From: a virus
DNA length: 48,986 nt
Virus record (IMG/VR): IMGVR_UViG_3300042924_003196
Span: 1-48,986 of that record
Direction: 5' to 3' (one strand)
Part shown: positions 1 to 43,302 of the stretch, piece by piece
Layout: every line of letters starts with the position of its first letter
How positions within the stretch are numbered: position 1 is the stretch's first letter
The notes under the pieces: model-generated
Databases searched by the model: none
Seen by the model: only the letters and a program-made list of their open reading frames with translations
Told to the model about the DNA's origin: nothing
Translations under genes and position numbers: made by a program

Positions 1-3000
1 TGCTTGAACTTGACTTGTAAATTTTACAAAAGTATTTCCAACCATAGACATTTTACCAGCAGATGCTAGTAGCAAATCAAGTTGTTTTTGAGCTTGTTCT
101 GGCTTAAGTTGTCCGATTGCAACTTGTGTTGCAATAAATGCGTTTGCTATTTTAATAATTTTTTCTGGATCGTTTTCTTTTTCTAATCCTTCAACTAAAT
201 CTCTTAATGGATTATTTTCTGGAAGAGATTCAATTAACGCTATAAATCTAGATAGTTCTTCATTTGTGTAACCAAATGATTTACCAGCATTTCCTGCTGC
301 TGCATCAAGTGTTGTTATTGAACTTGTAAGCGATCCTACTTTAATAGTTGTATCAACAACTGCATTACCAAAAAATGTTGCAACGTCAGCACTTGACTTA
401 AATACTGCTTCATTCATTGCCTTTAATTGCTTTTGCTTTTCTATTAATCCAGCAATAGCAGTTGATACTAATCCTATTGCAGCGCCTGCTGCTTGACCAT
501 ATGGTCCAAACATCATTCCAAGGTTTGCTCCTGCAAGTGCTCCCTGTGCCATACCCTTTCCAGCAAAATCTGGTAGCATTGAAAGCCCCATGTTTGCTCC
601 AAGAAGCCCCATTCCGCCACCAAATGAATTCATTCTGTTTCCTACAGATTTTACTCTGCCTACAGCTGTTGCTTTTGCTTGTCTTCTAGATTCTCTGCGA
701 GATTCTGATTCTGTTAATGGTGCAACTATTGATAGCTGACTTGTTCCTGTTGGCACTACTGGCCCTATTGGTGCTGGCCCTTGTGCTCTTGTTGCAACAC
801 GACGTGCTTTACCACTTTGTGTCATCTGCTTCTTTTTTGCATCCTCATATGCAATTGCATCTTCTTTACCATGCTTAGCAGCTAATGGATGTGGACTGCC
901 TCTATCTAGGCTTGCAACATAAGGATCTTTAACTGATTCTTTGACACCCTTTTCGTATGCCTTGCCATCTTTCTTGCCTCTGTCTAAAATTTTTGCTGCT
1001 GATGCGACTGCACCAGATCTTCTTGGATCTGCTTGAAGTGTTGATATGTCTTCTTGTATTGGACCATAGACATGTCCCATTTGTAATGAATCAGATGACT
1101 GCCCAGTCATTCTTGAGAACAACTTTTTTGCACCTGGACGAATTGCAGTATAAGATCTAAACCCAGCTAACCTTGCTTTAAATGCTCCACGACGTGCTCT
1201 ATTTGGAGTAGTTCCTCCAGCCTCTCTAGAGTCTGTAGGTATTGTTCCATACTCATCTCTTTCAAGACCAAAGGTTTTTCTAACAACGCCTCTTTCTGTT
1301 TCTGACTTAATAGTATCAACTTGCTCTGCTACATGCTTTCCAGCAGATGACCAAGACTTTTGCATTCTTTCATTTTCGTCCTTGATGTCTGCAAATGTTT
1401 CATTATACTCACTGTTAAGTTTTTCAACAAACCTTGTTGTAATATCTTCATATTCTTTGTATATATTGTCAAAACTTCCAGAGCTGATCTGTGATGATGT
1501 TGGAGCAATCCCTCTTGCTTCTCCAATTCTTAAAGCAAGTGGTGCCAAAACATTTGGAACTCCAGTTGTTCCAGATCTTTGACCCATATTTTCTGCTGCG
1601 TCTTGAAGTCTTAGTGCATACTCTGGGTACATAGAAACTTGTCCTGGTTTTCCAAATTCATATCCAGGAATACTGTCTGCAATCATTCCATTAATTAATG
1701 AACCATACTTCTTGCTCATCTTTGTTGGAATTACTGTTTCTCCAGGCATTAAGAGTGCTAGTTCTGAATCTTTATTTCCTGTACCGCCAACAACTGCTGG
1801 CTTACCCTCTGCTCTCTTTGTTATTGGACCTCTGACCATTGGTCTAGCAGATGGAACAAATTGAGCCTGAGCAGCAATAGATCTTTGATATGCTCTTGTA
1901 AGAGCATCAACTGCAGATGCTTCTGCAGTAAATGTTTGTGCAAGAGTTCTGTGTACTTGATCAAGAGATGCTGCTACCGCTGCTGCATTTCTTTGCTCAA
2001 GTGTCATATATTTAACTTCGGTGCCCAAAGTTGCAGATGATTGCCCAGTCTTATTAAACAGGGTTTTCATAAATGTAAAGCCCTTAATTATGTTTGCTAC
2101 ACCATTTGCAAGCAAACCAAATGTCATAAGAAGTACTGGTCCAAGTCCAGCTACTACTGCTGTTAAAGTAATTATTATTTTTTTAGTACCTGCTCCAAGA
2201 TTATTAAAACCATCTAAAATTTTTGTAACAAACTCAGCAATTGGAGTTACGGCCTTTAAAAATTCTTCTCCTACTGGCACTAATGCTAGCTTTAGATTTT
2301 CAACAGCACCCTTAAATTTATTCATAGCAGACTCTGATGTCATGCCTAATTCTTTTTCAGACATAGCTGCTAAGTCTTGAACAGATGCTGAAGCTAAGTC
2401 AAGAACACGGGCTGCCTGTGTACCATCTTTAGTAACGTTTGCAAAAAGTGTTGATAGACGAGCAAACTGAAACTTTCCAAACATTTGCTCAATAACCTGA
2501 GCTCTATTAAGTGGATCAAGTTCATTTAAAGCTGATGCAAAATCAATAACGGTTTTCTTTAGGTTTCCTCTATTGTTTTCTACAATTTTCTTTGCATTAA
2601 TACCAAAGCTTAAAAGCATATCGTTTGCTTTTCCAGTTGGATTAATCAAAGATGCAAGACCAGACTTTAAGGCGTTAGCGCCTTCTGATGCATTGATTCC
2701 ACCTTCCTTCATTGCAGTCATAAGGAATGCTAAATCTTTTACATCTCCACCAAGCTGTTGTACTACTGGGGCTGCTTTTGGAATTGCAGTTGACATGTCA
2801 TCAAGTGACAATACTGTTTGGTTTTCTACTGCGTTAAGGAAATCAATAGATTCCGCAAGATTATCAGATGACATTGCAAAAGCATTTTGTAATGCAATTG
2901 TTGTTTCAAGTGCTTTTTGACTTTCTACTTGACCAAGAATAGATAGCTTTGTTGCTGCAGTAGTCTGTCTTTGTAAATCAAGTCCCTTAAAGCCTGCAGC

Positions 3001-3804
3001 TGCTGCCTCTGCTGCAAGTCCTACGGTGCTTGATACTGCGATTCCATACTTTGTAAACTCTTTACCAAGATCTTTAATGTCTTCTAAAGCTTGCTTTGAT
3101 TCTGCTTGTGGTGTAAATAAATCTCCATAAACTTTTTTAAATCTAATTGCTTGTGTTTCCATATCCATAAATGCTTTTGCTGCTGCAGAACCTGCAGCCA
3201 TTAATGGAATTGTAAAACCAACCATGAGCTGACGACCAGCCCACTGTGTATTTTTACCAAAGTTTAATAGATTTGTAGAACCTTGTTTTAAAAGTTGGTT
3301 GAGCAATGCCTGTTTTTCAGAAGCAATCATTGTTTTTGTTGCAAGATCATTCATGTCCAAAGACAGAGGTCTTACAGAGATTGCTCTCATGGCACCGTTT
3401 GCATCACGGCCCATCTTGATATATTGTGTCTGAAGGTCTTTTACGTTTTCTCTTGCTACCTTGTTTATTGTTTCAAACTCAGTTTTAAATAATCTACCAA
3501 AACTTTTAGAAGCTCCGCCAGCGTATCTAAAATACTCTCCCAAAGAAAACTTGTTTTTTTGTAAAGAGTCTGTAAAAGATTCAGTGGTTGTTCTTATTGT
3601 TCTCATTTGGGCAGAGAACTTGCCTGTTGCATTTATAGAGTTAATTAAATTTTGCTGCATTTGAGCAGTAACTGCATTTGCTGCAGCACCACTTTGTGCC
3701 ATTGATGTGTGAAAGGCTGATATCTGTCTCTGTAAGTTTTTGATACTGGCAAGTGCTCCAGTAGTATCAATACTTACTTTAATATTGGACTGAGCATCAG
3801 CCAT
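1..3804 (-). CDS. Tail tape measure protein (3' end outside window)
   Basis: The reading frame is open from an ATG at 3804 down to base 1 without a stop, giving at least 1268 codons; the C-terminus lies outside the window. The protein starts MADAQSNIKVSIDTTG and is rich in Ala, Gln, Lys and Thr with long helical stretches. A hydrophobic stretch lies near residues 540-575 (KKIIITLTAVVAGLGPVLL), and a Gly/Ala-rich segment lies near residue 1100 (GPYGQAAGAAIG). Extreme length, composition and position directly after two tail-assembly chaperone genes are typical of TP901-type tape measure proteins, which set tail length and occupy the tail tube. A Shine-Dalgarno-like AAAGAGGTG lies just upstream of the ATG. 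No internal frameshift was seen in the parts translated. Confidence 0.9.
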   Translation of the reverse strand, partial: MADAQSNIKVSIDTTGALASIKNLQRQISAFHTSMAQSGAAANAVTAQMQQNLINSINATGKFSAQMRTIRTTTESFTDSLQKNKFSLGEYFRYAGGASKSFGRLFKTEFETINKVARENVKDLQTQYIKMGRDANGAMRAISVRPLSLDMNDLATKTMIASEKQALLNQLLKQGSTNLLNFGKNTQWAGRQLMVGFTIPLMAAGSAAAKAFMDMETQAIRFKKVYGDLFTPQAESKQALEDIKDLGKEFTKYGIAVSSTVGLAAEAAAAGFKGLDLQRQTTAATKLSILGQVESQKALETTIALQNAFAMSSDNLAESIDFLNAVENQTVLSLDDMSTAIPKAAPVVQQLGGDVKDLAFLMTAMKEGGINASEGANALKSGLASLINPTGKANDMLLSFGINAKKIVENNRGNLKKTVIDFASALNELDPLNRAQVIEQMFGKFQFARLSTLFANVTKDGTQAARVLDLASASVQDLAAMSEKELGMTSESAMNKFKGAVENLKLALVPVGEEFLKAVTPIAEFVTKILDGFNNLGAGTKKIIITLTAVVAGLGPVLLMTFGLLANGVANIIKGFTFMKTLFNKTGQSSATLGTEVKYMTLEQRNAAAVAASLDQVHRTLAQTFTAEASAVDALTRAYQRSIAAQAQFVPSARPMVRGPITKRAEGKPAVVGGTGNKDSELALLMPGETVIPTKMSKKYGSLINGMIADSIPGYEFGKPGQVSMYPEYALRLQDAAENMGQRSGTTGVPNVLAPLALRIGEARGIAPTSSQISSGSFDNIYKEYEDITTRFVEKLNSEYNETFADIKDENERMQKSWSSAGKHVAEQVDTIKSETERGVVRKTFGLERDEYGTIPTDSREAGGTTPNRARRGAFKARLAGFRSYTAIRPGAKKLFSRMTGQSSDSLQMGHVYGPIQEDISTLQADPRRSGAVASAAKILDRGKKDGKAYEKGVKESVKDPYVASLDRGSPHPLAAKHGKEDAIAYEDAKKKQMTQSGKARRVATRAQGPAPIGPVVPTGTSQLSIVAPLTESESRRESRRQAKATAVGRVKSVGNRMNSFGGGMGLLGANMGLSMLPDFAGKGMAQGALAGANLGMMFGPYGQAAGAAIGLVSTAIAGLIEKQKQLKAMNEAVFKSSADVATFFGNAVVDTTIKVGSLTSSITTLDAAAGNAGKSFGYTNEELSRFIALIESLPENNPLRDLVEGLEKENDPEKIIKIANAFIATQVAIGQLKPEQAQKQLDLLLASAGKMSMVGNTFVKFTSQVQA

Positions 3805-3827: not shown

Positions 3828-4154
3828 TTATTCTTCAATGTTGCTAAAAATTGCTGCTGCGTCTGAAATTGCAATTCCTGATGCTGTTTCAACAATCTTA
3901 TAGACAGTAGGCAAATCAATATTATCTTCTAGATTTGCAAGATCTACATCTAGTCCAGCAGCGTACTGCTCCATAGCGATTAATACACACTGCATTAAAA
4001 GATTAATTGACTTATCATTATCATCTACTACTGCTGCAATACCCTCAAACTTTTTCATAAACTTTCGTAAAAGTGAAATTTTAAGCGGTCTTAGAGTAAT
4101 TTCTGTACCATCAATTAGCTTAATCGTTTGCGCTTCATGCACGGTTGTTGCCAT
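3828..4154 (-). CDS. Tail assembly chaperone, short paralogue
   Basis: This 108-residue protein lies immediately before the tape measure gene, the usual place for gpG/gpGT-type tail chaperones that coat the tape measure during tail assembly. It aligns over its whole length with the N-terminal half of the neighbouring 245-residue protein: both have DGTEI, PLKI, LR-FM and the shared block LEDNIDLPTV near residues 75-84. It lacks the C-terminal extension. A strong ribosome site (AAGGGAGGG) precedes the ATG and a TATAAT lies about 20 bases further upstream. The pair looks like a gene duplication rather than the usual frameshifted product. The family assignment rests on position and size. Confidence 0.7.
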   Translation of the reverse strand: MATTVHEAQTIKLIDGTEITLRPLKISLLRKFMKKFEGIAAVVDDNDKSINLLMQCVLIAMEQYAAGLDVDLANLEDNIDLPTVYKIVETASGIAISDAAAIFSNIEE

Positions 4155-4200
4155 CTTGATCCCTCCCTTAGGTTTGTATTAATTATAGCATACAAAGGGT

Positions 4201-4938
4201 TTATTTTATAAGGTTTGGATCTCTTGCATCTTCGTAGTCAAGCCCCATTCCAATACCAAAACCTGCTGATCTAGCATTTTGTCCTTGCAAAGATAGTACA
4301 TCATTGCTATCACTTGTAGCGCCACGACTAAATACTCTTGCTTTAAGATTTTCCCATTCTTTTTGACCACGCTCTTCATTTCCGTCAGACTCTAGGTCAA
4401 CACCCTGTATTGCTGCAAAAAATTTCTTTTCTTGATAATCTAATTCTCTTTTGCTTGATAGGATTGCTGATATCTCTGCTAACGATAAAGACTCTTCTAG
4501 CTCATTATAGTCTTTCCATATACCCAGCAAAAAAACCTCCGACTCAATTTTTGCCAGATCAAACTCTTCCCATGAGGGACCTGCTTCGCTTTTTTGTGCC
4601 TTAGACTTAATGTCTTGACTTTCTTGACTTTTTTCATTTTCTTCTGTTTGATCAATCTTGATATTAGCAGCAATATCCAATATTGTATGAACAGTTGGCA
4701 AGTCTATGTTGTCTTCAAGATCTTCTATGCTTTTAGATATTTGAGGATAATATTGTTTCATTGCTATTCTTGTACATTCCGTTAAAACCATCATTGACTC
4801 ATCATCATCTTGTGCATACTTTATCTTATTAAATGCATCCATAAACTCTCTAAGGTACTTGATCTTAAGAGGCATTATCTCTATTTCTGTTCCGTCAAAT
4901 AGATAAATATTTTTTGTTTTATAAATTGATGTCGCCAT
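4201..4938 (-). CDS. Tail assembly chaperone, long form
   Basis: The protein has 245 residues. Residues 1-100 match the short neighbour (LFDGTEIEIMPLKI, LEDNIDLPTV). A charged linker follows (about 100-120, ENEKSQESQDIKSK), then a second domain with SWEEFDLAKIESEVFLLG, a DYQEKKFFAAIQGVD block and a C-terminus ending MGLDYEDARDPNLIK. This layout corresponds to the fused G plus T protein that siphophages usually make by frameshifting, but here it is encoded in one continuous frame. It lies between the major tail protein and the tape measure gene. No Shine-Dalgarno sequence is evident before the ATG at 4938, so initiation may be leaderless or weak. Confidence 0.7.
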   Translation of the reverse strand: MATSIYKTKNIYLFDGTEIEIMPLKIKYLREFMDAFNKIKYAQDDDESMMVLTECTRIAMKQYYPQISKSIEDLEDNIDLPTVHTILDIAANIKIDQTEENEKSQESQDIKSKAQKSEAGPSWEEFDLAKIESEVFLLGIWKDYNELEESLSLAEISAILSSKRELDYQEKKFFAAIQGVDLESDGNEERGQKEWENLKARVFSRGATSDSNDVLSLQGQNARSAGFGIGMGLDYEDARDPNLIK

Positions 4939-4954
4939 GATATATCAAGTTTAC

Positions 4955-4993
4955 CACAAAAACAACAAAGCCCACCTCGTTATGAGATGGGCT
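4955..4993 (-). terminator. Rho-independent terminator after major tail gene
   Basis: On the minus strand a 10-base stem (AGCCCATCTC with GAGGTGGGCT, one G-T pair) with a 5-base loop is followed by TTGTTGTTTTTG. It lies just past the stop of the major tail gene and would reduce read-through into the chaperone and tape measure genes. Confidence 0.8.
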
Positions 4994-5015: not shown

Positions 5016-5651
5016 TTATGATTGGTCGCCCCATGTGCGATCTACGATCTTACCGTATGATCCACCATCTTCTGGAAGAAGACGGAATGAAACCTCAAAC
5101 ATTGAAGCTTCTTCACGCTTAGCAGATACTGTTACATTTTCAATTGAAAGTGCACGGTATCCAACATAAACACGCTCTACATATGCAGAGTCTACGCAGT
5201 CACCAGTTCCTGGTCCAACTGCAACGATTCCTCGCTCAACTGGGCATTCACCGATATCTCCTGCTGACAAGTCCATTGTCTTGTCTCCATTAAGTGCTGT
5301 AGTAAGCTTTGAATCGCCATATGCTAGAGCCAATAGAAGATTTTCTAGTGTGGCTTCAGCAAATGCTGTTGCAAGATTAACTTGCATTCCTTGCTTGTAA
5401 AGCTTAGCAACGTCAAGAATTTGGTCAACCTGTACTTCACCGAAGTCAGGCTGGAACTGCAATTCAAGACCATTCATAGTGTAACCTACGTTTGTAAAGT
5501 CTGAATCATCTGCAAGAGTTTCTCTGTATGATTCAGTGTTATCAAATGCTGGAAGAGCGTTAGCTCCTGTAGGTGCCAATGTAGTGTCTGCAATAAATAA
5601 TGCTGCTGCACCAACGATAATGTTGGTAGACGTTCCACGACTATATGCCAT
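5016..5651 (-). CDS. Major tail (tube) protein
   Basis: This 211-residue protein (MAYSRGTSTNIIVGAAALF) stands between the neck/tail-completion genes and the tail chaperones, where siphophages place the tail tube subunit. It is beta-rich and acidic, has no signal peptide, and contains a repeated tube-like pattern (QFQPDFGEVQVDQILDVAKLY; SVSAKREEAS-like strands near residue 185). Expression features suit an abundant protein: its own TATAAT box at 5715-5720, a good ribosome site (AAAGAGGTGA) and a terminator directly downstream. The function comes from synteny and size, not from a recognised motif. Confidence 0.75.
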   Translation of the reverse strand: MAYSRGTSTNIIVGAAALFIADTTLAPTGANALPAFDNTESYRETLADDSDFTNVGYTMNGLELQFQPDFGEVQVDQILDVAKLYKQGMQVNLATAFAEATLENLLLALAYGDSKLTTALNGDKTMDLSAGDIGECPVERGIVAVGPGTGDCVDSAYVERVYVGYRALSIENVTVSAKREEASMFEVSFRLLPEDGGSYGKIVDRTWGDQS

Positions 5652-15594: not shown

Positions 15595-18318
15595 CTATGC
15601 TTTTAAGTCTCCAATAAGTAGCCAAGCATCTGTTGTTACTTTGGTAAGTGTTGCTGATGAATATAGAGCTCTTAGAATTGCTCCTGGAGTTGCATATATC
15701 GTTACTCCAGCAGCTGCTGCAAAGCTTGCTCCACCTGCTCCAGATGATTGCCAGAAACTTATTGATGTTCCTACTGGGAATGCGGTTGTTGCATTTGTTG
15801 GAACTGTAACTGTATGTGCGCCTGAGATTTGAACCAGCTGATCACGAAGAGTAAGTCCACCTGTTGAAAGGTTGTAAGCTCCTGAGATTGTAGTTGTTGT
15901 AGTTGTAAGTGATGGAACGCCAGCCTTTGTTTGTGTACCGTCTGTAAACGCAACTCCATTTGCTGCAACTGTTACTGTTCCAGTGAATGTTGGTGAGGCA
16001 AGTGGTGCCTTTGCTGCAAGACTAGTTGTCACTGTTGTTGCGAAGTTTGCATCGTCACCAAGTGCTGCTGCCAGTTCGTCAAGTGTGTTAAGTGCTGCTG
16101 GGGCTGATGCAATTACTGCATTTACCTGTGCTGTTGCATCTGCGATTGCTTCTGACTTAGCAGTTGCAATTGCTGTAGCCTGTGCAGTTGAGACTGGCTT
16201 ATCTGCATCTGATGTGTCATTGACATTGGTTAGACCAACCATAGCCTTAGTTATACCAGAAACAGTGCCTGTAAATGTTGGGTTAGCGATTGGTGCGTAT
16301 GTTGAAGCTGCAGTTGCAGAAGCAAGCTTAGCATCCAAAGCAGTCTGTGTATCATCAGAGATTGGCTTATCAAGGTCTGCTGTGTTATCAACATTTCCTA
16401 GACCAACCATAGACTTGGTTATACCAGAGACTGATCCTGTAAATGTAGGAGAATCAATAGGAGCCTTATCGTCTAATTGATCCTGAATGCTAGATGTAAC
16501 ACCATCAACATATCCAAGCTCTGTAGCAGAAACTGTTGAAGATACCTGTAGCTTTGTCCATTCAATTGAACCATTTAGCTTCTCATTTGTAACTGAATCA
16601 GCAGCAAGCTTTTCAGCTGTTACCGCTAGATTTTGAAGTTCAGCAGTTCCTACTGAGCTATCATTCATCATAGATTGTGAAATAGTGTTAGCTGGAAGAG
16701 TTACTGTACCAGTAAATGTTGGTGACTCACTTGGTGCCTTAAGATCAAGGGCTGCTTGTGTCAGTGTAGAAATTTCCTTATCAGCATCGCTTGTGTTATC
16801 TACATCACCAAGGCCAACCATTGCCTTTGTAATTCCAGCAACAGTGCCTGTAAATGTTGGTGACTCAAGAGGTGCATAGGTTGATTCTGCATCTGTAATA
16901 TCAAGCTTTAGATCAAGCTCAGCCTGAACAGCTGTTGATGTTGGCTTATTTGCATCTGAAGTATTGTCAACATTTCCAAGTCCTACCATCGCTTTTGTAA
17001 CTCCAGAAACTGTTCCTGTAAAGGTAGGTGAAGCAATTGGTGCATATATAAAACCTGCAGCTGTAGCTCCAAGCTTTGAAGAAAGTTGTTCTTGAATTGA
17101 TCCTGTAAGACCTTCAAGGTATCCAATTTCTGTATTTGAAACATCTCCTACTGTAAGTGATGTTGCCTCAAGTGCACCTACTGCAAGAGCATCAAGTGAA
17201 CCTTCACCAAAAGCCACTACAGTTGATGGTTCTGTAGATACATCCTTAAATAGCTTCCACTTAGATTCAGATACGTCTCTAACGATACCTGCGTGCTTTC
17301 CTGTACCGTCGTTGTAAGATACAACAATACCTAGGTCTACCGTATTTGCTGCATTTTGATGTGCAAGTTGTACCATATTGTCTTCAATGGTAATTGATGT
17401 TGCACTTGCTGCAAAGTTAGTTCCATTTACAGTTAAGTCACCTTCAACTACAAGGTCATTACTTACTGTAAGATCAGGAATAATTACACTTCCTGTAAAC
17501 GTAGGGGATTCAATATCAGCCTTTAGGTCAAGTGCTGTTTGTGTAGCAGTTGAAACTGGCTTGTCAGCATCTGCTGTATTTGTTACATTAGCAAGACCAA
17601 CCATTGCCTTTGTTATACCTGATACTGTTCCTGCAAAAGTAGGGGAATCAATTGGAGCCTTTAGATCCAAAGCTTGTTGAGTTGCTGTTGAAATCTGCTT
17701 GTTAGCATCTGATGTATTATCAACATTTGAAAGTCCAACCATTGATTTTGTAACACCTGATACAGTACCAGTAAATGTTGGATTTGCAAGTGGAGCCTTT
17801 AGATCTAGAGCATCTTGTGTTGCAGTTGAAATAGGCTTAGCAGAGTCTGAAGTGTTGTCTACAGATCCTAGTCCTACCATAGACTTAGTGATACCTGAAA
17901 CGGTACCTGTAAATGTTGGAGACTCAAGTGGTGCCTTAAGTGCTAAGCCTGAGTTTACGGTTGATGTTAAGGCAAGTGCTGAAGTATCGGCAATACCGTG
18001 AATATTTGTTGTGTCTGATTGGTGGTTTGAAAGATTTGTTGCTACTGTTGTAAAGAAAGCTGGGTCATCACCAATCGCTGCAGCTAGCTCATTAAGGGTA
18101 TCTAATAGTTGTGGTGCTCCGTCAATAAGGTCAGAAATTGCATCATTGTTAGCAAAGTAAGGAAGATCTACCCAGTGATTTACGCCATCACCAATCTTAA
18201 ATCTATTGTTGTCTATTTCAAAGCCAATTTCGCCAGCGTTAAGTACTGGACCGTCCCCACCATTTGTAGAGACCCACTGAGCTGCGGTACCTCTACGCTG
18301 TTGCATTCTTGTTGCCAT
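15595..18318 (-). CDS. Large repetitive tail fibre protein
   Basis: The product has 907 residues. The N-terminus (QRRGTAAQW; GEIGFEID; FKIGDGVNHW) resembles the phage-fibre N-terminal fold seen in Mtd-like tropism proteins. The body carries about nine copies of a repeat of the form SPTFTGTVSGITKSMVGL-NVDNTSDADKPISTATQ-ALDLKAP, typical of trimeric fibre shafts. The C-terminus (from about 800) is a beta-rich tip with SLTTTTTTISGAYNLSTGG. It would attach to the baseplate and bind the host surface. A ribosome site (AAGGAGA) and a TATAAT precede the ATG. The repeats make this gene prone to recombination. Confidence 0.85.
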   Translation of the reverse strand: MATRMQQRRGTAAQWVSTNGGDGPVLNAGEIGFEIDNNRFKIGDGVNHWVDLPYFANNDAISDLIDGAPQLLDTLNELAAAIGDDPAFFTTVATNLSNHQSDTTNIHGIADTSALALTSTVNSGLALKAPLESPTFTGTVSGITKSMVGLGSVDNTSDSAKPISTATQDALDLKAPLANPTFTGTVSGVTKSMVGLSNVDNTSDANKQISTATQQALDLKAPIDSPTFAGTVSGITKAMVGLANVTNTADADKPVSTATQTALDLKADIESPTFTGSVIIPDLTVSNDLVVEGDLTVNGTNFAASATSITIEDNMVQLAHQNAANTVDLGIVVSYNDGTGKHAGIVRDVSESKWKLFKDVSTEPSTVVAFGEGSLDALAVGALEATSLTVGDVSNTEIGYLEGLTGSIQEQLSSKLGATAAGFIYAPIASPTFTGTVSGVTKAMVGLGNVDNTSDANKPTSTAVQAELDLKLDITDAESTYAPLESPTFTGTVAGITKAMVGLGDVDNTSDADKEISTLTQAALDLKAPSESPTFTGTVTLPANTISQSMMNDSSVGTAELQNLAVTAEKLAADSVTNEKLNGSIEWTKLQVSSTVSATELGYVDGVTSSIQDQLDDKAPIDSPTFTGSVSGITKSMVGLGNVDNTADLDKPISDDTQTALDAKLASATAASTYAPIANPTFTGTVSGITKAMVGLTNVNDTSDADKPVSTAQATAIATAKSEAIADATAQVNAVIASAPAALNTLDELAAALGDDANFATTVTTSLAAKAPLASPTFTGTVTVAANGVAFTDGTQTKAGVPSLTTTTTTISGAYNLSTGGLTLRDQLVQISGAHTVTVPTNATTAFPVGTSISFWQSSGAGGASFAAAAGVTIYATPGAILRALYSSATLTKVTTDAWLLIGDLKA

Positions 18319-23975: not shown

Positions 23976-24707
23976 TTACATACTTTCGTTGCGATTAAGA
24001 CTCATGTTGTTGTGAATCCAGTGTCCAGGAACCATATACTTATGTCCAGACTTTACAACATGGGCTGTGTGAAAATATGGTGCTGATGCTGGAAATATTA
24101 TTACACTGTTTGCTTTTGGTTTAACACCAAAATCTATTGATTTATCAGCAACTGCTACATCGTAGTCTAAATCAACAGCTGGTGCGCCACGCACCCATCC
24201 ATCAGAACTAGTCCACCCACCATCATAATCTTTTAACTGAAAAGAAATCTCTCCGCCTTCACAGTCATCATTTAAATACATAACAAGCGAATATCTTAGT
24301 GTTTGATCTCCATCTAACTGATCAAAATGTGCACCCATACCCATTCCAGAGTTGTATTTTTTAATGTTAAATGTTGGAAATAGTCTTGGCTCGTCAAAAT
24401 CTCCTAAAGATGATGCATAGTCCTTGCATATATTAGTAAATGTTGTCATTACGGCATCATAAATATATTTGCTTTTTTCTCCAACCTCACCCTTTATTTG
24501 TTCAATTGCTGATAGATCAAATGTTTTAGTTTGTCCATAAATAAAAGTTTTATCATTAGAAGATGTCCAGTTATCCCAAACATTAACATTAAAGTCATTA
24601 GAAGATTCTAGTTCATCTAGCTCCAGGAGCGTCTGCTGAAACTTATCAAAATTATCAATTGCATCAGTATAGTAATAAACTTTTGGATCTAGAATCTCTT
24701 TATTCAT
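23976..24707 (-). CDS. 2OG-Fe(II) oxygenase 2 (Lys in place of Arg)
   Basis: The second of two adjacent ATGs (24707) is preferred because AAGGAG lies five bases before it. The 243-residue protein has His127-x-Asp129 (GAHFDQLDGD), MYLNDDCEGGEISF (143-156) and distal His213 or His216 (YFHTAHVVKSGHKYM). The position that usually holds the 2-oxoglutarate-binding Arg is Lys223. It has an insertion of about 35 residues between the conserved block and the distal His (DYDGGWTSSDGWVRGAPA). Lys at this site occurs in collagen-type prolyl 4-hydroxylases. It is part of the oxygenase array. Confidence 0.83.
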   Translation of the reverse strand: MNKEILDPKVYYYTDAIDNFDKFQQTLLELDELESSNDFNVNVWDNWTSSNDKTFIYGQTKTFDLSAIEQIKGEVGEKSKYIYDAVMTTFTNICKDYASSLGDFDEPRLFPTFNIKKYNSGMGMGAHFDQLDGDQTLRYSLVMYLNDDCEGGEISFQLKDYDGGWTSSDGWVRGAPAVDLDYDVAVADKSIDFGVKPKANSVIIFPASAPYFHTAHVVKSGHKYMVPGHWIHNNMSLNRNESM

Positions 24708-24716
24708 CATATCTCC

Positions 24717-29841: not shown

Positions 29842-30554
29842 TACTTGTGACCTAGCTCATTAATATCAGTCATTATAACAACACAATATTTTGTTCCAGA
29901 CCTCATTGGTAATGATGCATGCTCATAAATATAGTTTGATGGGAATATTGCAATATCTCCTACCTTTGGAGTAAGCGTATATCCATCTAGTCTTGGGAAC
30001 TGAATTTCTCCGCCTTCATAATCATCGTTAATATAAATAACTGCAGAAACTGTTGCGTTATATGCTGGTCCATGGTCTGCATGAATGTTGAAGTGTTTTC
30101 CTTCTCCTTCATATTTTACAAAATTAAATGCTTCATAATATACAACATTGATTCCCCAATATTTTGCGTAGTCATCAATACAATACTTTAGCTTCTCATA
30201 TATTTCTTGATGTAGATCAATAAGCTCAGAGTTATGCTCATCTCTTGGTCCTAAATTTTCTTGCTTAAATCTAAAATCAACACAGTCTCTTGCTCTTTTT
30301 ATAGGTGTAGAAGAATTTGTTACTTGTGCTTCTGACCATCTATATTTTTTATTACCGCTTAGGTTTGACTCAAGAATATCAATATATCTTTTAGAGTCTT
30401 CTAATGAAAAAACATTTCTGTAAACATTTAAACCAAGTCCTGGATTCTCTACTAGAATGCCATTGTCTATAGTTTTTGCAGCAACCCTATTTAATGCTGT
30501 TTCAGATCTATCTTTTGTAAACCAAGGGTTTTCGTTTTCATCATAAAATTCCAT
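29841..30554 (-). CDS. 2OG-Fe(II) oxygenase 8 (Lys in place of Arg)
   Basis: A 237-residue protein and first gene of the array. His158-x-Asp160 (NIHADHG), IYINDDYEGGEIQFP (173-187), distal His212 (YEHASLP) and Lys222 (SGTKYCVV). The N-terminal 40 residues are extra relative to oxygenase 7. A good ribosome site (AAAAAAGGAGA) and a TATAAT about 30 bases upstream mark the start of the oxygenase transcript. A terminator for the upstream Phe-Pro repeat gene separates the two units. Confidence 0.87.
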   Translation of the reverse strand: MEFYDENENPWFTKDRSETALNRVAAKTIDNGILVENPGLGLNVYRNVFSLEDSKRYIDILESNLSGNKKYRWSEAQVTNSSTPIKRARDCVDFRFKQENLGPRDEHNSELIDLHQEIYEKLKYCIDDYAKYWGINVVYYEAFNFVKYEGEGKHFNIHADHGPAYNATVSAVIYINDDYEGGEIQFPRLDGYTLTPKVGDIAIFPSNYIYEHASLPMRSGTKYCVVIMTDINELGHK

Positions 30555-43201: not shown

Positions 43202-43275
43202 GGTCTGTTAGCTCAGTTGGTTAGAGCGCTACCCTGTCACGGTAGAGGTCGTGGGTTCAAGTCCCATACAGATCG
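43202..43275 (+). tRNA. tRNA-Asp (anticodon GUC)
   Basis: A full cloverleaf of 74 bases: acceptor GGTCTGT/ACAGATC (one G-T pair), D arm GCTC/GAGC, anticodon arm CTACC/GGTAG with loop CTGTCAC, T arm GTGGG/CCCAT with TTCAAGT. The anticodon GTC and discriminator G both fit aspartate. No CCA is encoded, so the host adds it. It is the only tRNA found. The many Asp-rich small proteins of the right arm may benefit from it. Confidence 0.95.
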
Positions 43276-43302
43276 CAAGAAAAAGGGCCCGACAAAATTT
43301 GG

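Follow-up and report, generated by a model that had tools for sequence, protein, structure and literature searches.

The stretch of DNA analysed here (hereafter the window) comprises the 48,986 bases of one virus record, and its minus strand carries a head-tail block that runs from portal, prohead protease, and capsid genes through further head-tail genes to a tail tube gene, a long and a short chaperone-like gene, and a tape measure gene (Table 1). A terminator-like hairpin lies between the tube gene and the long gene, such that the local order is tail tube, hairpin, long gene, short gene, and tape measure. The two chaperone-like genes are found between the tail tube and tape measure genes; the G and T genes of lambda likewise lie just ahead of the tape measure gene. 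The tube gene occupies the position of the annotated major tail protein of Streptomyces phages. The N-terminal part of the tape measure protein found a match in 115 of 121 loci (the thinned set described below), and in five Streptomyces phages this match is exactly the ORF annotated as tape measure protein.

Other genes were also identified in the window. Pfam matches revealed a gene for a B12-dependent ribonucleotide reductase that lies upstream of the portal gene, among the head genes. A 907-aa protein has a major tropism determinant N-terminal domain, two 2OG-Fe(II) oxygenase genes sit in a run of minus-strand ORFs of about 200–290 aa each, and there is a single tRNA-Asp gene.

Table 1 Features of the window, with positions counted from its first base.
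Feature	Position	Strand	Remarks
Tape measure protein gene	1..3804	-	Extends past the window edge
Short gene	3828..4154	-	108 aa, ATG start; stand-alone G-domain paralogue, gpG-like chaperone (probable)
Shine-Dalgarno of short gene	4160..4169	-	Strong; AAGGGAGGGA; read from sequence
Extended -10 like element of short gene	4182..4190	-	TGC-TATAAT; 27 nt before ATG; read from sequence
Long gene	4201..4938	-	245 aa, ATG start; gpGT-like chaperone (probable)
Extended -10 like element of long gene	4948..4956	-	TGG-TAAACT; ends 9 nt before ATG
Terminator-like hairpin and T tract	4969..4993	-	Between tail tube gene and long gene
Major tail (tube) protein gene	5016..5651	-	phrog_2175, 'protein with Ig domain'
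B12-dependent ribonucleotide reductase gene	13413..15446		
Gene of 907-aa protein	15595..18318		
2OG-Fe(II) oxygenase gene	23979..24710	-	
2OG-Fe(II) oxygenase gene	29844..30554	-	
tRNA-Asp gene	43202..43276		

The original prediction for this locus described the long protein as a G-like and a T-like part in a single frame, and the short gene as a repeat of the G-like part. Both ORFs are indeed present on the minus strand, and the long protein is laid out as a G-like part (approximately residues 1–96), a linker, and a T-like part (approximately residues 120–240) that share one frame. A search of the long protein against the window's own record returned two matches only, itself and the short gene; the short protein is 45% identical to the long G part over residues 1–97 (E = 2.7e-22), and the motif LEDNIDLPTV, named in the prediction, is common to both. 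The proposed alignment of the two proteins thus bore out the prediction in showing that their G parts are homologous.

In PHROGs, the short protein and the N-terminal region of the long one both match phrog_10504, and the C-terminal region of the long one matches phrog_10474; these are separate families, neither of which carries a function name. A Pfam search with the two proteins found no family at its cut-off. Both proteins have matches among Streptomyces phage genes that are annotated as tail assembly chaperones (best E = 2e-28 for the long protein; E = 8e-13, the best among the matches listed, for the short one), an annotation that is itself the inference of others. AlphaFold2 models of the two proteins are of low confidence (mean pLDDT 59 and 64). 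A structure search with the long model, a weak query, returned three viral models at E ≤ 0.001, two of which are unnamed; the third comes from an uncultured phage and is named as a tail assembly chaperone (E = 2.4e-4). N15 GT followed in the same search at E = 0.033. A PDB structure search with these low-confidence models yielded nothing significant (best E = 0.92). We infer that the long and short proteins are tail assembly chaperones of a long-tailed phage.

Distribution of the arrangement and of slippery sites

Among the 80 viral contigs closest to the window, the fused gene is present in all 80 and a short gene stands behind it in 79, three of which are truncated where the contig stops. 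In the remaining one (L025) a different ORF follows the fused gene and runs to the contig end. We assembled a broader set by adding to these 80 the loci from five further viral scans, a single hit in genome_contigs, and six phage records, which gave 488 loci including the window and 347 that are distinct by exact DNA, near-copies being counted apart. In 298 of the 347 a fused gene is followed by a short gene, in seven there is a fused gene and the next stretch is unreadable, and in the remaining 42 G occurs once and T is in a different frame. The order of long then short, which the original prediction considered unusual, is thus common among relatives, the other form being a single G with T at -1; its recurrence in 298 loci rules out an assembly artefact or a chance likeness.

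Whole fused GT and whole G genes are found in 282 of the 298 loci, and the other 16 are cut or split (nine with G cut by the contig end, five with the start of the long gene cut, one with the short gene split by an indel, and one with only T before G). The seven unreadable loci stand for nine before duplicates are merged; eight of these stop no more than 119 nt past the GT stop codon, one of them (L111) with the beginning of a G still visible, and the ninth is L025. No fusion with a readable absence of a second G, and no frameshift form with a second G, occurs among the 347 distinct loci. As there is no readable exception among the fetched loci, fusion goes with a second G and frameshifting with a single one. 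Two further scans for intermediate states found none among the best 80 of 341–600 stretches per viral scan; all viral scans were of this depth, and in four of the six the matches may outnumber those listed, such that rarer states may exist. The search for a second G covered the match strand of the fetched DNA. Two loci show irregular reading frames: at L289:3399-3736, on the same contig as L349, an indel splits the short G gene into two frames, which reflects either a sequencing error or a broken gene, and at L142:227-1322 an extended long ORF overlaps the short gene in another frame.

Every one of the 42 distinct single-G loci encodes T at -1 and carries an in-frame heptamer in the overlap. 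The heptamers are GGGAAAC (19), CCCGGAA (12), CCCAAAT (9), and CCCAAAC (2); CCCGGAA, which departs from a strict XXXYYYZ, was put into the search after being seen in the data. The nearest named phages infect Streptomyces. Streptomyces phages have one G place per record in 127 records, and T follows G at -1 in all six that were read in detail. Environmental phages with GGGAAAC are near the fused ones in T, as illustrated by the 77% identity between the T of L123 and that of L193, which lies on the contig of the fused locus L015. The sole genome_contigs hit (L329), filed under an uncultured cyanobacterium, has the frameshift form and is perhaps a misbinned phage contig.

The same signature is lacking in the fused genes. 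Across 184 fused genes the junction has no heptamer at a conserved place: 49 in-frame XXXYYYZ were counted there, with at most six alike at one place. Neither in the window nor in its fused relatives does T lie at -1 behind a slippery heptamer. The search for slippery sequences that the original prediction had called for therefore favours its central proposal that duplication stands in for frameshifting: single-G relatives have T at -1 and a slippery heptamer, and fused relatives have a second G wherever the DNA can be read.

Start signals of the two genes

We then compared the regions upstream of the two genes with those of the frameshift relatives. From 328 loci first classified, 308 passed length filters and 218 were distinct by protein (185 fused and 33 frameshift), with 121 left after thinning at 90%; start signals were counted in the 218, and for the long gene in the 181 of 185 loci in which a start codon was found together with 70 nt upstream. 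The short gene is preceded by TGN-TATAAT in 184 of 185 loci and by a Shine-Dalgarno with a computed duplex energy of -5 kcal/mol or stronger in 183 of 185. The G of frameshift phages has TGN-TATAAT in 28 of 33 loci, an extended -10 at 22–38 nt in all 33, and a Shine-Dalgarno in 20. The long gene has an extended -10 (at least four of six positions) only 5–9 nt before its start in 161 of 181 loci, with TAGAAT (54), TATAAT (35), TAAAAT (34), TAAACT (30), and others as the best hexamers over all 181, and a Shine-Dalgarno in six. In control ORFs a Shine-Dalgarno was found in 534 of 934 and an extended -10 at 5–9 nt in 14 of 934; the latter figure, together with 1 of 181 for shuffled upstream sequences, rules out chance as the source of the -10 at this position. 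These counts indicate that the short gene starts like the G of frameshift phages and that the start of the long gene is of another, leaderless-like kind.

A terminator-like hairpin occurs no more than 110 nt ahead of the first G gene in 170 of 181 fused loci and in 26 of 33 frameshift loci, as opposed to one and none, respectively, in shuffled sequences; the short gene has such a hairpin ahead of it in 1 of 181 loci. In 235 of 281 distinct fused loci the long gene has already ended where the TATAAT of the short gene begins; the stop of the long gene and the TATAAT overlap in 43, the TATAAT falls inside the long ORF in one, and the other two have TATACT in its place. At L029 and L077 a foreign ORF parts the two genes, and TATAAT and Shine-Dalgarno remain beside the short gene. 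The ORFs behind the long gene in individual phages are of several kinds: that of L029 (L029:5759-6298) belongs to the endonuclease VII family (PF02945, E = 1.4e-20), that of L077 (L077:5742-6368) is a methyltransferase (PF13649, E = 8.2e-16), and that of L025 (L025:5746-6222) is weakly like phytanoyl-CoA dioxygenase, below the cut-off.

Both putative promoters are consensus matches, and it is from these that we predict promoter activity; given the spacing of its -10, the mRNA of the long gene would be leaderless or nearly so. A sigma-70 scan of the window listed neither of these sites, presumably for want of a -35 element, and the number of promoters it found in the window is at chance level (8 versus 8.1 expected).

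Origin of the fused gene and competing explanations

The homology of the G parts, the reading frames, the gene order, the co-occurrence of fusion and second G, the lack of a conserved slippery site in fused genes, and the conserved start signals could be accounted for by the following scenario. An ancestor would have had one gene that gave a short G and, through -1 ribosomal slippage, a minority of long GT. In the clade to which the window belongs the G gene would have been duplicated, the upstream copy joining T permanently in frame and the downstream copy being kept as a stand-alone G. The long gene would be transcribed from an extended -10 promoter, usually below consensus strength, into a leaderless or nearly leaderless mRNA, and the short gene would have a TGN-TATAAT promoter and a strong Shine-Dalgarno, such that the G:GT ratio, once set by slippage, would now come from two promoters and two modes of initiation. 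Judged from these signals, short G would outnumber GT, which is also the outcome expected of slippage; the excess would coat the tape measure protein, and the few GT would recruit the tail tube subunit. We consider it likely that ancestral slippage gave way to duplication and fusion, with the ratio now governed by two transcription and translation starts. A fuller version, in which the clade swapped its frameshift for duplication and fusion, sets the ratio through unequal promoters and translation starts, and has a long G that is now a specialised docking domain, is one that we favour on balance and hold less firmly.

The divergence of the two G parts bears on this last point. Within one phage they are about 38% identical on average. 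In a gap-penalised estimate for 35 phages, the mean pairwise identity is 0.48 for long G, 0.66 for short G, and 0.64 for T, and short G is more alike than long G in 575 of 595 phage pairs; in the G tree, long G makes up one clade and short G another (99/90 and 99/96). Such a pattern would also be expected if the long and short proteins had different jobs, for example as a hetero-oligomer of fixed order on the tape measure protein, and their ratio were not the point. Faster change is, however, also expected of a fused G that merely docks, and the higher variability of long G fits a domain with only that need; the ratio, moreover, is reported to matter in lambda and TP901-1 (PMC5009743, PMC4493119, in the parts available to us). 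Different jobs therefore seem to us a rather unlikely key to the arrangement, and one that is compatible with duplication and a ratio set by two starts.

One may also postulate that the long gene still slips out of the T frame to yield a G-only product of its own, the short gene being an extra, specialised chaperone. An in-frame XXXYYYZ does occur somewhere in 154 of the 184 fused genes, and the commonest place, with 64 cases, is the EKKF motif of T. This heptamer is nevertheless no commoner than codon use predicts (63 seen versus 71 expected in 159 genes), which removes EKKF as a hidden slippery site; as it lies inside T, a slip there would give no clean G, and the scatter of heptamers at the junction described above likewise argues against slippage. 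We regard continued slippage of the long gene as very improbable.

Duplication and fusion starting from a frameshift ancestor was then set against the phylogenies. A neighbour-gene tree was built from the tube protein, two proteins encoded upstream of it, and the N-terminal part of the tape measure protein, with G and T excluded; 5 of 60 taxa were left out, having fewer than three of the four proteins. This tree recovered a fused clade of 31 rows (87/78, with long-branch warnings) and, apart from it, an environmental frameshift clade of 14 rows (100/100) and a frameshift outgroup of 10 rows (100/100) that was chosen by us. Single-domain trees did not give the topology expected for the order of duplication and divergence: the free G trees joined long G to the far outgroup (98) and short G to the environmental frameshift G (99/97), and in the free T trees the frameshift clade fell among fused rows. 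When the expected groups were constrained to stay together, the resulting trees outscored the free ones by 29.5, 56.7, 5.7, and 3.6 log units, an indication that the free searches were incomplete, and AU tests of constrained against free trees do not decide (p = 0.789, 0.918, 0.559, and 0.574). Given that the outer rows, including the Streptomyces phages, all have the frameshift form, this form looks older than the fused one, and it is simplest to suppose that the fused form arose once, for which support is moderate. The reverse scenario, in which the fused form is older and the environmental frameshift clade returned to slippage, would suit the free G and T topologies but is the least probable of all, given the frameshift form of every outer row, the separation of the two clades in the neighbour-gene tree, the long branches of long G, which are a known source of such topologies, and constrained trees that scored no worse.

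Comparison with known chaperone systems

According to a review, conservation of the G/GT frameshift is wide among long-tailed phages, with T4 as the exception, and lambda needs G and GT at about 30:1 (PMC5009743, seen in part). Like gpG and gpGT of lambda, the proteins described here are two forms with a common G domain, the longer of which carries a T domain; lambda, however, has one copy of G and obtains GT by slippage at about 30:1 (PMC5009743), whereas here GT is fused and a second gene provides G. The nearest named relatives by T and G sequence are the Streptomyces phages Coruscant, Bmoc, Enygma, and Wofford (Stanwilliamsviridae) and Navo (unclassified in its record), which share with the fused clade the gene order and the TGN-TATAAT and Shine-Dalgarno before G, but differ from it in having a single G, T at -1, and the heptamer CCCGGAA. 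A laboratory mutant of TP901-1 has, like the fused clade, a permanent in-frame GT, and its particles are reported to look whole and to be non-infectious; this mutant fuses its G to T, whereas phages of the fused clade retain a separate G (PMC4493119, as far as the accessible text goes). The fused clade has the same chaperone pair as known systems, made in a different way.

Among the matches listed in a search of the open literature, the accessible text held no prior report of a frameshift replaced by duplication and fusion. The gene duplication described in a paper on phage P1 concerns, in the part available, tail tube proteins and not chaperones. Leaderless mRNAs have been predicted for some mycobacteriophage promoters (PMC4351075, available in part). 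The frameshift of Cluster AN Arthrobacter phages is assumed, its site not yet found according to the available portion of that report (PMC5679792), and the authors of PRFect, in the sections accessible to us, hold that the frameshift is certainly absent from some SEA-PHAGES genomes and attribute cases of two chaperone genes with no joined gene largely to incomplete annotation (PMC10885494). For annotators, the loci described here counsel caution, in that an adjacent pair of chaperone genes need not imply an unannotated frameshift.

That the frameshift is widely conserved despite unlike sequences raises the question of whether slippage itself is needed or only the protein ratio. Close relatives that frameshift, set against a clade that is fused and duplicated, offer a natural replacement experiment on this question; if our explanation is true, it would predict that selection keeps the ratio of the two chaperones and not their coupling.
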